In this document: in pieces, positions 24,932 to 31,838 of the stretch
How positions within the stretch are numbered: position 1 is the first letter of the stretch
Layout: every line of letters begins with the position of its first letter
DNA from: a virus
Virus record (IMG/VR): IMGVR_UViG_3300025120_000278
Location: 1-32,436 of that record
Direction: 5' to 3' (one strand)
Length of the DNA stretch: 32,436 nt
Translations under genes and position numbers: made by a program
Notes under the pieces: model-generated
Told to the model about the DNA's origin: nothing
Database searches by the model: none
Seen by the model: only the letters and a program-made list of their open reading frames with translations

Positions 24932-24962
24932 TTTGGTAGATAATTCCAATTTTATATATTTG
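24932..24962 (+). promoter_or_regulatory. Strong Bacteroidota-type promoter of the replication operon
   Basis: TTTG (24932-24935), exactly 19 bases, then TATATTTG (24955-24962) followed by CC. This is the same architecture as at 30297-30327 and the best-fit -33/-7 pair of the group. Transcription would begin near 24968, about 24 bases before the start at 24992. Confidence 0.8.
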
Positions 24963-26211: not shown

Positions 26212-26652
26212 ATGAAAAGAAGGAGATTAAAATTTAGCGATTACTATAACAATATAATTATGTCTGAATTGGCAGATATATATGAAATAGATAAAGAAAG
26301 AATGTTTTTAGGTAGCAGAAAGAAGAACATTATATTTGCTAAGAGAATGTACATATACATTTTAAGAGAAATGTTTGGATTAACTCTAATGGAGATATCA
26401 GGTGTAACTAACTTACACCACTCATCAATAATACATCATACTAGAAAGTTTGAATTCTTCTATAACAATTATACTGAAGAATCTGAATTATTTAAAAGAG
26501 TAGAAAGTAAGATAATTGAGGTAGAGATAGATGAGGAGATATTAGGATTAGAAGCTAGACATCAGACAATAAAGGATTCATTAACTAAATTATATAAAAT
26601 TAAAAAACAAAAAAATGACAGACAAGAAAGAGAAGGTTTACTTACCAAGTAG
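26212..26652 (+). CDS. Stand-alone DnaA domain IV-like protein
   Basis: The 146-residue protein shows, at about 30-80, RMFLGSRKKNIIFAKRMYIY-ILREMFGLTLMEISGV-TNLHHSSIIHHTRK. This is the pattern of DnaA domain IV, where the basic helix, then a helix-turn-helix with a (G/N)-x-H-(S/T)-(S/T)-x-x-x-H signature, binds the DnaA box. No AAA+ part is present, so it is a DNA-binding module only. The C-terminal part (about 100-146) is a charged helix. It overlaps the SSB gene by 38 bp. It may recognise origin or host DnaA-box sequences, or block host DnaA. Confidence 0.8.
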   Translation: MKRRRLKFSDYYNNIIMSELADIYEIDKERMFLGSRKKNIIFAKRMYIYILREMFGLTLMEISGVTNLHHSSIIHHTRKFEFFYNNYTEESELFKRVESKIIEVEIDEEILGLEARHQTIKDSLTKLYKIKKQKNDRQEREGLLTK

Positions 26653-26905
26653 TATTAAAAACATTCCAACTAAGTATGGAGAAATGATGGTTGCTAACTT
26701 CAAGTTAGATGAACTACAAAAGAACTCAAAGAATGGTTGGGTATCAATGGTGATTTCAGAACGCAGAGAGCCATCAGAAAAAGGTGCTACACATTATGCC
26801 TATGTAAATGATTTTGAGCCAAAACAAAAGCCATTAATGAGTGAAACATCAAGAAAAGACCCTATGGGTGGGATAAATTCACCTTCAGATGACTTACCAT
26901 TTTAA
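26615..26905 (+). CDS. ssb: Small single-stranded DNA-binding protein-like
   Basis: The 96-residue protein has a short OB-like body (IPTKYGEMMVANFKLDELQK, then GWVSMVISERREPSEKGATH-YAYVNDF) and a flexible tail that ends in SPSDDLPF. The acidic tip DDLPF is the hallmark of bacterial SSB C-termini (DDDIPF), which recruit replication partners. It is shorter than typical SSB. It sits between the DnaA-like and initiator genes. Confidence 0.7.
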   Translation: MTDKKEKVYLPSSIKNIPTKYGEMMVANFKLDELQKNSKNGWVSMVISERREPSEKGATHYAYVNDFEPKQKPLMSETSRKDPMGGINSPSDDLPF

Positions 26906-26962: not shown

Positions 26963-27586
26963 ATGAAAGAACAACCAAACTTCTTCTCTGTCATACCTGC
27001 AGGTGTAAGATATGATAAAGATTTAACTCCAAACGCTAAACTTCTTTATGCTGAAATAACATCTCTACTTTCTATGAGTGGTGCTTGTTATGCTTCTAAT
27101 AAATACTTCTCAGATTTATATGGAAAGAACAAAGTAACTATTTCCAGATGGATTAAAGAATTAAAGGAAAGAGGCTATATATCAGTTAGTTATACATACA
27201 AGGAAGGTAGTAACGAAATTGCTAATAGGTATATACAAATTTGTTTAGACCCCCTTAGCAAAAATGACAAAGGGGTATTAACAAAAATGCTAAAGAGTAG
27301 TAATACTAGTATTAATAATAAGAGTATTAATAATAAGGTAAATTTTAAAAAACCAACAATAATTGAAGTTAAAGAATATTGTACTGAAAGAAAAAATAAT
27401 GTAGATGCAGAAACATTCTGTGATTTTTATGAAAGTAAAGATTGGCTAATAGGTAAAAACAAAATGAAGAGCTGGAAGGCTTGTGTTAGGACTTGGGAGA
27501 AAAGCAGCATAAACAATAATACTAATGATAGAACCACATCACATAGACACAGTAAGGGTAAAGACTATGGAGATGGTTCTTTTTAA
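26963..27586 (+). CDS. Replication initiator-like protein with winged helix
   Basis: The 207-residue protein begins MKEQPNFFSVIPAGVRYDKD-LTPNAKLLYAEI, the start of the winged-helix domain of phage replication/replisome-organiser proteins (HTH_36-like), and continues with a recognition helix around NKVTISRWIKELKERGYISV. The C-terminal part has YESKDWLIGKNKMKSWKACV-RTWEKS, as in DnaD/DnaB-like replication proteins. I chose ATG 26963: the upstream in-frame ATG at 26915 would place the start inside a hairpin. It probably binds the origin and hands over to the loader encoded next. Confidence 0.8.
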   Translation: MKEQPNFFSVIPAGVRYDKDLTPNAKLLYAEITSLLSMSGACYASNKYFSDLYGKNKVTISRWIKELKERGYISVSYTYKEGSNEIANRYIQICLDPLSKNDKGVLTKMLKSSNTSINNKSINNKVNFKKPTIIEVKEYCTERKNNVDAETFCDFYESKDWLIGKNKMKSWKACVRTWEKSSINNNTNDRTTSHRHSKGKDYGDGSF

Positions 27587-28400: not shown

Positions 28401-28496
28401 TACTCAGGAAATAATTAATAATAAATAAAGGGTAAGACCTAAATGCTTTTAATTTTTGAGACCTGAGTAGTAGAGGGGGGGTGTGGTTACCTCCCC
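28401..28496 (+). other. Structured intergenic RNA region
   Basis: TACTCAGG (28401-28408) pairs with CCTGAGTA (28462-28469), enclosing 53 mostly A/T bases with a small AGG/CCT stem. Next comes a second hairpin G7 (28475-28481) with CCTCCCC (28490-28496) around an 8-nt loop TGTGGTTA. No T run follows. It is a candidate cis-regulatory RNA or attenuator of the downstream membrane genes. Confidence 0.5.
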
Positions 28497-29472: not shown

Positions 29473-29736
29473 ATGCCAAAGATTAGAAAGATAAAAGTAA
29501 GTGATAGGAAAGACTCAAGAGGTGGAGGTTACTCCAGAAGAAAGTTTACTGTTGCTGAAGCTGATGCTATAAGACTAGAGTTTAATACTTCTTCAGAGAA
29601 AATTACTATCTCTGCTATGGCAAGAAAGTATGAAGTATCACAACCACTAATGTATCAACTACTTAAAGGAACAACCTATACCGATAAGAGTAAGGGGATT
29701 AGGGGGATAGGGGGCATAGGGGGTAAGGGGGTATAG
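29473..29736 (+). CDS. Helix-turn-helix protein with G4-encoded tail
   Basis: The 87-residue protein has a helix-turn-helix at about 25-68 (FTVAEADAIRLEFNTSSEKI, TISAMARKYEVSQPLMYQLL-KGTTY), a type found in phage transposase- and endonuclease-like DNA-binding modules. The last 14 residues (KGIRGIGGIGGKGV) are encoded by the G-run repeat at 29694-29738. The function may be a regulator; family name unsure. Confidence 0.65.
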   Translation: MPKIRKIKVSDRKDSRGGGYSRRKFTVAEADAIRLEFNTSSEKITISAMARKYEVSQPLMYQLLKGTTYTDKSKGIRGIGGIGGKGV

Positions 29737-29738
29737 GG
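29694..29738 (+). promoter_or_regulatory. G-quadruplex motif at the VRR-NUC start
   Basis: Six G runs: GGGG at 29694-29697, GGGGG at 29702-29706, 29710-29714, 29719-29723 and 29727-29731, then GGG at 29736-29738, with loops of 3-4 bases (ATTA, ATA, CATA, TAA, TATA). It spans the stop codon of the HTH gene and ends one base before the next start. In such AT-rich DNA this is exceptional and could fold as DNA or mRNA. Confidence 0.75.
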
Positions 29739-29739
29739 T

Positions 29740-30093
29740 ATGGCAATGAAGAAAGAAGCTAGAGTACAATCATCATTATGCACCTACATACAACTTACCT
29801 ACCCATCAGTAAGATACTGTGCCTCTCTAGGTGGTATAAGAACATCAATGACTCAGGCTATTATGGCTAAGAAAACTGGCTATGTTAAAGGCTTTCCTGA
29901 TATGCAGATATGTAAGGTCAATAGCGAGTACGCAGGACTCTTCTTAGAGATTAAAGCTGATAAGACAGGCTATGCATCCAAAGAGCAGAAGCAATGGGTA
30001 GCTGACCTCAATGAAGCAGGTTACTTTGCCAAAGTAGTTAAAGGACTTGAAGAGTGTATGGATGTCCTTGATTGGTATATGAAAATAAAATAA
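29740..30093 (+). CDS. VRR-NUC domain nuclease
   Basis: This 117-residue protein matches the VRR-NUC (PD-(D/E)XK) fold: the N-terminal E6-x-x-x-Q10 helix, GFPDMQI with D54, LFLEIKADK with E70 and K72, then S-x-EQ at 80-83 (ASKEQKQW) and GYFAKVVKG. Phage members of this family are likely structure-specific or recombination nucleases. Start at 29740 is right behind the G4 motif; a second ATG at 29746 is possible. Confidence 0.9.
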   Translation: MAMKKEARVQSSLCTYIQLTYPSVRYCASLGGIRTSMTQAIMAKKTGYVKGFPDMQICKVNSEYAGLFLEIKADKTGYASKEQKQWVADLNEAGYFAKVVKGLEECMDVLDWYMKIK

Positions 30094-30135: not shown

Positions 30136-30175
30136 CCTGAAACTGCTGAAACTGCCCTGAAACTGCTGAAACTGC
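30136..30175. repeat. Iteron-like 20-bp tandem repeat
   Basis: CCTGAAACTGCTGAAACTGC occurs twice head to tail without mismatch. Each copy holds two 9-bp TGAAACTGC units directly abutting, so the units start at 30138, 30147, 30158 and 30167. The pattern suits several bound copies of an initiator. Confidence 0.85.
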
Positions 30176-30296
30176 CAGACATCTCCTATGTGCGTGTATG
30201 CGTGTATATGTGCGTTCTATATACTGCAATCTCTTGATTTCTAGTTATTTAGAATGATTATAAATTAGCATATTAATAAATATTTTTAACAATTTG

Positions 30297-30327
30297 TTTG
30301 CTATTGTGCAAAAGTGTTGTATATTTG
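30297..30327 (+). promoter_or_regulatory. Strong promoter of the small-gene operon
   Basis: TTTG (30297-30300), 19 bases, TATATTTG (30320-30327), followed by CA. The spacing and -7 sequence are identical to the promoter at 24932-24962. It drives the genes from 30376 on. Confidence 0.85.
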
Positions 30328-30375: not shown

Positions 30376-30612
30376 ATGAAAGCAACAGAATTAAATGGTG
30401 AAATGTATAAATTAAGAAACAACAAATTAAAAATTAAAGTTGGGGATAAAATTACCTTTAACTATTATGGAACTGTATACACAAGAAAAGTGCAAACAAT
30501 GCATATATCTTTTAATGGTTTAACTAACTATAATGTGAATAAAATAGGTTGTGGAACAGGTTGGACAGGTGTAGACGCAGAAGATGTAATAAAAATTAAT
30601 AAAAAGAAATAA
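30376..30612 (+). CDS. Small hypothetical protein
   Basis: The 78-residue basic protein looks like a small beta-barrel (KLKIKVGDKITFNYYGTVYT, LTNYNVNKIGCGTGWTGVDA). It is the first gene after the 30297 promoter, so probably early-expressed. No domain is recognised. Confidence 0.6.
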   Translation: MKATELNGEMYKLRNNKLKIKVGDKITFNYYGTVYTRKVQTMHISFNGLTNYNVNKIGCGTGWTGVDAEDVIKINKKK

Positions 30613-30620
30613 CTAAAACT

Positions 30621-30782
30621 ATGCAAAAACTAAACAGCAACCTATTAAAAAAAGCAAGTAGTGAACCAAAGCACACAACCAGCGAAAATATAATATTTTA
30701 TACTTTATCATTTTTAGCTTGTTTTGTACTGCTTTACGCGCTTTGCTACACTATAAACCTAATTGAAACAATAACCTTTTAA
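30621..30782 (+). CDS. Small membrane protein
   Basis: ATG 30621 encodes 53 residues: MQKLNSNLLKKASSEPKHTT and then one membrane helix at about 24-47 (IIFYTLSFLACFVLLYALCY). It lies 8 bp after the previous stop. Real by position and normal leader; function unknown. Confidence 0.55.
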   Translation: MQKLNSNLLKKASSEPKHTTSENIIFYTLSFLACFVLLYALCYTINLIETITF

Positions 30783-30805
30783 ACTAACTTAAAACACTTT
30801 AAACA

Positions 30806-31237
30806 ATGGACACACACACACAGAACAACCGAAAAAATCCAATCAATCACATTTTAAGTGATGAAGATTTACAGATTCAAAGAGATGAGAAAATAATTGA
30901 TTTACTTGATTCTTTAGCTGATAAATTTAGCCTTGGAGACACTCCAAGCGAGTATTTAAGCAGTAAAACAGATTTAACAGATGCTTATCATTTAATTGAT
31001 GAATTAAGACAAAACGGATATTTTGAAGAAGAGGTAATCTATTACAGCTCTGCAATTAAATACTTAAAAGACAATGACCCTAGCCTTCGTTTCTCTTTAG
31101 AGATTGCAACAGAATACGGTTACGAGGCTAAAAATATTAATTCTGAACTATTAGCAAGCCTTCACAAATCACAAAAGAAAGAAGAAATATTTTATGAACG
31201 TATAGCGCCAGAATTAGAAACCCTTTTTAATAATTAA
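30806..31237 (+). CDS. Acidic helical protein of unknown function
   Basis: The 143-residue acidic protein (LLDSLADKFSLGDTPSEYLS, FSLEIATEYGYEAKNINSEL) contains no known motif. It sits in the early-gene cluster. Codon use fits the neighbours. Small acidic phage proteins can act as host-takeover or DNA-mimic factors, but that is only a hypothesis here. Confidence 0.6.
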   Translation: MDTHTQNNRKNPINHILSDEDLQIQRDEKIIDLLDSLADKFSLGDTPSEYLSSKTDLTDAYHLIDELRQNGYFEEEVIYYSSAIKYLKDNDPSLRFSLEIATEYGYEAKNINSELLASLHKSQKKEEIFYERIAPELETLFNN

Positions 31238-31250
31238 TAAACATACTAAA

Positions 31251-31553
31251 ATGAGACAAATAACAGAAGAATCAGCAAAAGCCTTTTATAATAAAGGTAC
31301 TTTAAACAAACAAAATATGAGCGTATTTTTTGACTCATACGACTATAAAAGCAGGATGTTATTGCATAATAACTGTATAGCAACTTTTGACCATCAAGAA
31401 AACATCTTAACCATTAATAATTGCGGCTGGTTCACGCCTACAACAAAAGAAAGGTTAAACGCTTTAAAAGGTGTAAACATTCAGCAAAAGTCTTTTAAAT
31501 GGTATTTAAACGGAAAAGAGTGGGATGGTAATAATATTAATATAAAACAATAA
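31251..31553 (+). CDS. Conserved phage protein (DUF8033-like pattern)
   Basis: The 100-residue protein has RMLLHNNCIATFDHQENILT, then INNCGWFTPTTKERLNALKG and a final SFKWYLNGKEWDG. I recognise the LHxNxIA ... CGWxTxTTKERLN ... WYLNG pattern as a widespread small phage family of unknown function. The family number is from memory. Confidence 0.65.
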   Translation: MRQITEESAKAFYNKGTLNKQNMSVFFDSYDYKSRMLLHNNCIATFDHQENILTINNCGWFTPTTKERLNALKGVNIQQKSFKWYLNGKEWDGNNINIKQ

Positions 31554-31559
31554 AACAAA

Positions 31560-31838
31560 ATGAAAACAATTAACAGAGACAAAGCAAAAGAACTTATTAA
31601 ACAAAGTAAAGGTTTAATTTTTTCAGCTGCATTTATAAAGAAGGATGGCACGCATAGACTAATGAATGCTAGAATAGGCAAACAGTACGCCAGTAAAACA
31701 GGCAGAAAAGCACCATATAAGGCAGAAGAATTTAACTTAATACCTTTATATGATATGAGAAAAAAAGCGTTTAGAATGCTAAATTTTAATACTCTTATTA
31801 CCTTATCAATTAATAAAACTAAATACATAATAAAATAA
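31560..31838 (+). CDS. SH3-like beta-barrel small phage protein
   Basis: This 92-residue basic protein has FIKKDGTHRLMNARIGKQYA, then YKAEEFNLIPLYDMRKKAFR-MLNFNTLITLSIN. The KKDG-R-MNAR ... YDM ... R-MLN pattern is seen in SH3 beta-barrel fold proteins of Bacteroidota phages and plasmids. It lies 6 bp after the previous gene and overlaps the next by one base. Confidence 0.65.
   Translation: MKTINRDKAKELIKQSKGLIFSAAFIKKDGTHRLMNARIGKQYASKTGRKAPYKAEEFNLIPLYDMRKKAFRMLNFNTLITLSINKTKYIIK

Follow-up and report, generated by a model that had tools for sequence, protein, structure and literature searches.

A conserved predicted G-quadruplex tract at two alternative gene ends in related virus genomes, a candidate landmark for replication or packaging

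The G-run tract and the genes around it

The window, the whole virus contig of 32,436 nt that was analysed, carries a terminase gene near the start of the record (986-2428) and genes for replication initiation and helicase loading at 26.9-28.2 kb. Further downstream, a cluster of G-runs lies at the junction of two small ORFs. The features concerned are the following.

29473-29736, + strand: small helix-turn-helix (HTH) ORF of 87 aa, with a conserved core of ~71 aa and a non-conserved, G-rich tail derived from the tract; its TAG stop lies within the tract
29694-29738, + strand: tract of six G-runs (site A), for which a coding-strand G-quadruplex is predicted; a site A tract occurs in 91 of 121 distinct loci
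29740-30093, + strand: VRR-NUC nuclease ORF of 117 aa, downstream neighbour of the site A tract (PF08774, PDB 4qbl)
31460-31559, + strand: place matching site B, upstream of the ORF at 31560; vacant in the window but with a tract in the L146 and L232 clades
31560-31838, + strand: WYL_2 (Sm-like SH3 barrel) ORF, whose homologue lies directly downstream of site B tracts (PF10902, E = 3e-8)

The tract consists of six runs of 4, 5, 5, 5, 5 and 3 G, separated by loops of 3-4 nt (in order ATTA, ATA, CATA, TAA and TATA), and satisfies the definition of a canonical intramolecular G-quadruplex motif (at least four runs of at least three G, loops of 1-7 nt). The original prediction of a G-run cluster that is exceptional in its surroundings is borne out: in the window, with a GC content of 32%, the tract is the sole match to (G3+N1-7)x4 on both strands, and its G4Hunter score is 2.36 vs. 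1.48 at the next-best position. Its description as a five-repeat motif ending at 29740 has to be amended to six runs ending at 29738. Among 300 dinucleotide-based Markov simulations of the window, 12 contained a four-run motif of any kind; a six-run tract did not occur in any of them. The final residues of the 87-aa ORF (...DKSKGIRGIGGIGGKGV*) are encoded within the tract. The tract spans the 3' end of this ORF together with the TAG stop (29734-29736), while the ATG of the VRR-NUC ORF (29740) lies 1 nt past the tract end, which agrees with the placement claimed at the outset.

The identification of the downstream gene as a VRR-NUC nuclease also holds, with a match to PF08774 (E = 2.6e-5; 24.7 bits, above the curated cut-off of 23.8) and to PDB 4qbl (E = 4e-10). 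For the upstream ORF, structure prediction gave a tri-helical core and a disordered tail, and it is on this predicted core, together with Pfam matches below threshold, that the label HTH is based. All genes of the region are on the + strand and, consequently, the orientation of the tract fits a role in DNA as well as one in RNA.

Occurrence in related genomes

A scan with the nuclease protein retrieved 80 viral contigs, in 76 of which the nuclease gene is closely preceded by a G-rich tract of differing length and loops; further scans and de-duplication resulted in 121 distinct (non-identical) loci, the window included. At 91 of these the tract is kept at the HTH/nuclease junction (site A), so that the absence in relatives for which the original prediction had allowed is not what was observed. 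With a search for the G-run pattern another clade came to light. Its HTH gene has no tail at the end, and the tract is found at a second place (site B), 1.5-2.6 kb downstream of the nuclease start. This holds for 24 of the 121 loci, all without a site A tract. Site B is the end of a small ORF (MSGKLP...LFGGC*); the tract is situated at the stop codon or directly past it, is mostly untranslated, and ends ~35-45 nt upstream of the homologue of the ORF at 31560-31838. The same small ORF in the site A genomes L018, L039, and L113 has a plain TAA end without a tract. Both sites are covered at 70 loci, with the tract at A only in 46, at B only in 21, at both in none and at neither in three. The total of 24 for site B comprises these 21 plus L194, L204, and L214, whose contigs end inside the site B tract. 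Altogether seven contigs end inside the tract, all at its 3' side, which may reflect assembly, and this property was used only for placing these three; L191, L209, and L273 were left without a site assignment. A tractless clade (L013, L153, and L084) has neither site occupied.

In the tree of the nuclease gene, the site B loci are nested within site A lineages and the tractless loci form one clade, a topology that would require one relocation from A to B and one loss. Since only these two events are resolved on the tree, the mutual exclusivity of the two sites carries little statistical weight. The tract ends 1-5 nt before the nuclease start in other site A genomes vs. about 28-40 nt in L053-, L062-, L228-, and L278-type genomes, and over sites A and B the distance between tract and start codon ranges from ~1 to 45 nt. 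In the gene map of the relatives the tract is consistently located between the replication genes and the small-terminase gene. Most members of the L146 clade also contain three long G-runs in frame inside the HTH gene, ~110-80 nt before the nuclease (L146:3551-3580).

When 28 long contigs were searched for GGGG-N1-10-GGGG-N1-10-GGGG, matches were obtained in 26, and none was found in L084 (21.9 kb) and L153. Among the matches listed there is one tract per contig, on one strand (the coding strand), except for the HTH-internal runs of the L146 group. The qualification "telomere-like" in the original prediction did not stand up to this comparison. Three contigs (34.0, 33.3, and 38.0 kb) have end overlaps of 127, 99, and 127 nt, respectively, as expected of circular or permuted genomes, and in these the tract is internal. 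The commonest tract unit is GGGGG followed by YATA, with irregular units overall, and not TTAGGG. A telomere-like repeat or genome end was rejected, as there is no TTAGGG-type terminal array: TTAGGGGG occurs once in the window tract, and the tract has an internal position in the assemblies with overlaps of 99-127 nt.

Between the nuclease and the ORF at 31560, few ORFs are shared with relatives (30376-31553), and this hypervariable region, flanked by sites A and B, is likely an accessory-gene zone. In contig L152 (positions 1-170; the same contig as L009) the tract and the nuclease stand behind another upstream gene, not the HTH gene, which may be due to a rearrangement or to chimerism of the contig. 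Both observations, and the fact that a G-rich, strand-specific tract adjoins a predicted junction-resolving nuclease, would be in line with a recombination signal comparable to Chi-like G-rich motifs or to a quadruplex that starts recombination as in pilE. Stand-alone phage VRR-Nuc enzymes (stNUC, psNUC, and saNUC) do cut four-way junctions (PMC4103454), and the neighbour of the tract likewise encodes a stand-alone VRR-NUC domain, but in the site B clade the tract is not tied to this gene. HTH-gene distances and nuclease-gene distances between loci correlate with each other across the tract with r = 0.75 vs. r = 0.73 for a tract-free neighbouring gene pair. There is thus no excess of exchange across the tract; a recombination hotspot was rejected on these grounds, and we regard a recombination signal as quite improbable.

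Searches beyond this group gave few leads. For cultured phages and prophages no DNA match was obtained in phage records and only VRR-NUC proteins with ~25-40% identity were recovered; the HTH protein had no match among cultured or prophage relatives. No relatives were found in GTDB genomes with the patterns used. The same DNA pattern does occur in 26 stretches of bacterial genomes, and homologues of the genes of the window phage were not found at any of these 26.

Predicted fold and selection on the nucleic acid

For the RNA of positions 29680-29760, ViennaRNA predicts a minimum energy of -50.2 kcal/mol when quadruplexes are allowed vs. -5.1 kcal/mol when they are not. A quadruplex is likewise part of the predicted minimum-energy RNA fold of 79 of the 91 site A tracts and all 21 site B tracts that were folded. 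A four-run motif with loops of at most 7 nt is present in 55 of 78 distinct A tracts and 18 of 19 B tracts; with loops of at most 12 nt these numbers become 72 of 78 and 18 of 19. We therefore describe the tract as a conserved predicted G-quadruplex, and the quadruplex-forming capacity put forward in the original prediction is upheld at the level of motif and modelled fold. In seven distinct tracts no more than three long runs are within reach, which does not make a canonical four-run quadruplex, and for this reason a protein that binds the array of G-runs could be involved instead. No known RNA family or tRNA was found.

The G-runs lengthen the HTH protein by a tail that consists of 45% glycine and 14% arginine, which raises the question whether this peptide is the selected product, for example as an RGG-like nucleic-acid-binding tail; a coding link between RNA quadruplexes and RGG motifs has been described (PMC11789052). 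The reading frame, however, is not kept. In 70 distinct A tracts the G-runs start in codon phases 0, 1, and 2 in 151, 110, and 102 cases, respectively, and 65 of the 70 tracts use more than one phase. Glycine codons are shifted to GGG, which accounts for 298 of 460 (65%) in the tails vs. 38 of 496 (8%) in the other genes of the window. The HTH core is conserved, whereas the tails are neither conserved nor alignable. Early stops in the ORFs of L061 and L079 leave the further G-runs untranslated, in L020 the stop is lost and HTH and nuclease are fused, and at site B the tract is for the most part not translated. Frame use and codon choice led us to reject a function of the protein tail, a reading to which we attach hardly any probability.

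At 25-45% third-position divergence, 88% of the runs of at least four G keep an aligned GGG vs. 45% expected from substitutions, a retention that the alignment can inflate. Because all codon phases are used, GGG is preferred and the runs outlast the divergence of the genes, comparison of the sequences points with good confidence to selection on the nucleic acid and not on the glycine-rich peptide.

The variability of the tract might also be taken to indicate an imperfect repeat that perpetuates itself, in which slippage and mutation bias restore the G-runs time and again at a gene end where this is tolerated, with no function for the phage. Tract length and loops do vary strongly among relatives, and substitution rates in close pairs do not differ between runs and loops (0.067 vs. 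0.051). In addition, the nearest described class, the quadruplex repeats of Xanthomonas and Nostoc (GGGNATC and GGGGAYT; Rehm et al., 2015; PMC4692102), is without a proven function. These share with the phage tract the G-runs capable of forming a quadruplex, the location near stop codons on the sense strand and a variable length among relatives. However, they are regular heptamers, dispersed over the bacterial genome and mostly non-coding, whereas the phage tract is irregular, essentially single per genome, partly coding, and conserved in position with one relocation. A regular unit in many dispersed copies was not encountered here, where, among the matches listed, each contig has one tract. 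Irregular units, an essentially single copy on one strand, persistence through deep divergence and a clade that has no tract at A but has one at B are difficult to reconcile with such a repeat, which we consider rather improbable.

Candidate roles of the tract and other elements of the region

It was originally proposed that the tract could control translation of the nuclease or serve as a nuclease or replication landmark. The first possibility is weakened as a conserved function by the large clade with its tract 1.5-2.6 kb downstream of the nuclease start; the relocation and the variable distance to the start codon argue against a switch dedicated to the nuclease. The second is a fair reading of a conserved predicted G-quadruplex. 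Since zone, strand and near-single copy number stay constant, we favour a cis-acting nucleic-acid element that acts as a landmark at the level of the genome, in replication or packaging, with a quadruplex on the coding strand. As a whole this explanation is put forward tentatively, as something short of probable. A specific role at the DNA level, taken by itself, is a possibility to be held with somewhat more reserve, and the precise form of a single, strand-fixed, relocatable quadruplex that serves as a quadruplex origin, fork barrier or pac-like signal must be called doubtful.

Such an element would comprise several runs of 4-6 G, ~9-10 nt apart, able to fold as a quadruplex of the coding strand, and would be present in nearly single copy per phage genome, with the replication genes on one side of it and the small-terminase gene on the other. 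Its placement at an ORF end may be due to insertion being tolerated there, with the glycine/arginine tail as a by-product. Transcription or replication would open the DNA, upon which the G strand could fold into a quadruplex, possibly with an R-loop on the opposite strand. The folded strand might then mark a point at which the machinery of replication or packaging is loaded, begins or pauses, regardless of the gene that hosts the element. The tractless clade of L013, L153, and L084 weakens this landmark explanation, because there the element would be dispensable or replaced.

Its main rival is an mRNA element at the ORF junction. An RNA quadruplex, to which a phage single-strand-binding protein (SSB) may bind, would reduce or couple translation, or would make the transcript more stable near the downstream gene, i.e., the nuclease at site A and the WYL_2 protein at site B. 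Both sites lie on the mRNA strand, where one ORF stops and the next start codon follows at a short distance, and the RNA quadruplex is predicted to be very stable. The downstream genes differ between the sites, though, the start codon lies ~1 to 45 nt away, and any tolerated insertion would also sit at a gene boundary. A binding partner could be sought in the SSB-like gene at 26615-26905, which encodes a DDLPF tail (its predicted structure is of low confidence, with a pLDDT of 61), as the gene V protein of filamentous phages is a single-strand-binding protein that binds G-quadruplexes (PMC9231167); phage and protein are unrelated to ours in that case. L084 encodes, in place of the SSB-like protein, an OB-type protein that is unrelated but has the same tail (L084:1367-1717), an apparent domain swap. 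L084 is the only tractless genome that covers this gene and the 80 other loci scored have the usual type, a hint that loss of the tract co-varies with the swapped gene. However, the tract is retained in L278-type genomes even though their SSB-like protein is divergent, and OB-type phages in general lack not only the tract but also the HTH and nuclease genes. The co-variation was, therefore, set aside as that of one genome only. On balance we regard the mRNA-level explanation as possible but unlikely.

Other quadruplex systems offer partial parallels to the proposed landmark. The single conserved quadruplex near the pilE gene of Neisseria gonorrhoeae, reported to have a role in recombination (PMC3547852; PMC10094033), resembles the tract in number and setting and acts there as a cis element, but the phage tract shows no recombination signal in the correlations of gene distances. 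A mitochondrial G-run cluster on the transcribed strand is reported to be linked to replication priming (PMC8780183; PMC11346463); the phage tract is also a G-run cluster on the transcribed strand, a similarity that is by analogy only. A phage cis element of the present kind was not found in the open-access literature, which does not cover most subscription journals. Claims on quadruplexes in bacteria and phages are in many cases founded on counting motifs. In the present case the motif is nearly unique in each genome, has been retained over deep divergence while reading frames change, and is present at a new site where the old one is empty, which is unusually clean comparative evidence for a quadruplex-forming tract selected as nucleic acid. 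The natural genotypes with the tract at site A, at site B or at neither are a matched set for testing quadruplex action in a phage.

Several other elements were observed in the region. Soon past the nuclease stop there is an array of four GAAACTG repeats (30139-30174), with about one to six copies in relatives; its presence in the relatives shown, tractless and site B genomes included, suggests a second conserved cis element that is independent of the G tract. It is followed by an alternating purine-pyrimidine stretch, GTGCGTGTATGCGTGTATATGTGCG (30188-30215), which is possibly Z-DNA-prone and has comparable counterparts in many relatives. An intergenic hairpin of G7 and CCTCCCC is located at 28475-28496, with similar ones in L007 and L084. 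The replication-initiation gene contains, at 27250-27310, a repeated motif with CCCCC/GGGG and TTARCAAAAATG, where relatives have iteron-like GGGGGTATTAAAGAAAAC repeats. A promoter-like site of the Bacteroidota type, TTG-N19-TATATTTG, occurs in the intergenic gap past the nuclease (30298-30327) and another at 24933. With five matches in the window vs. 2.5 expected their number is near chance, so that they give only a hint of the host; if real, the sites at 24933 and 30298 would put A and B on separate transcripts.
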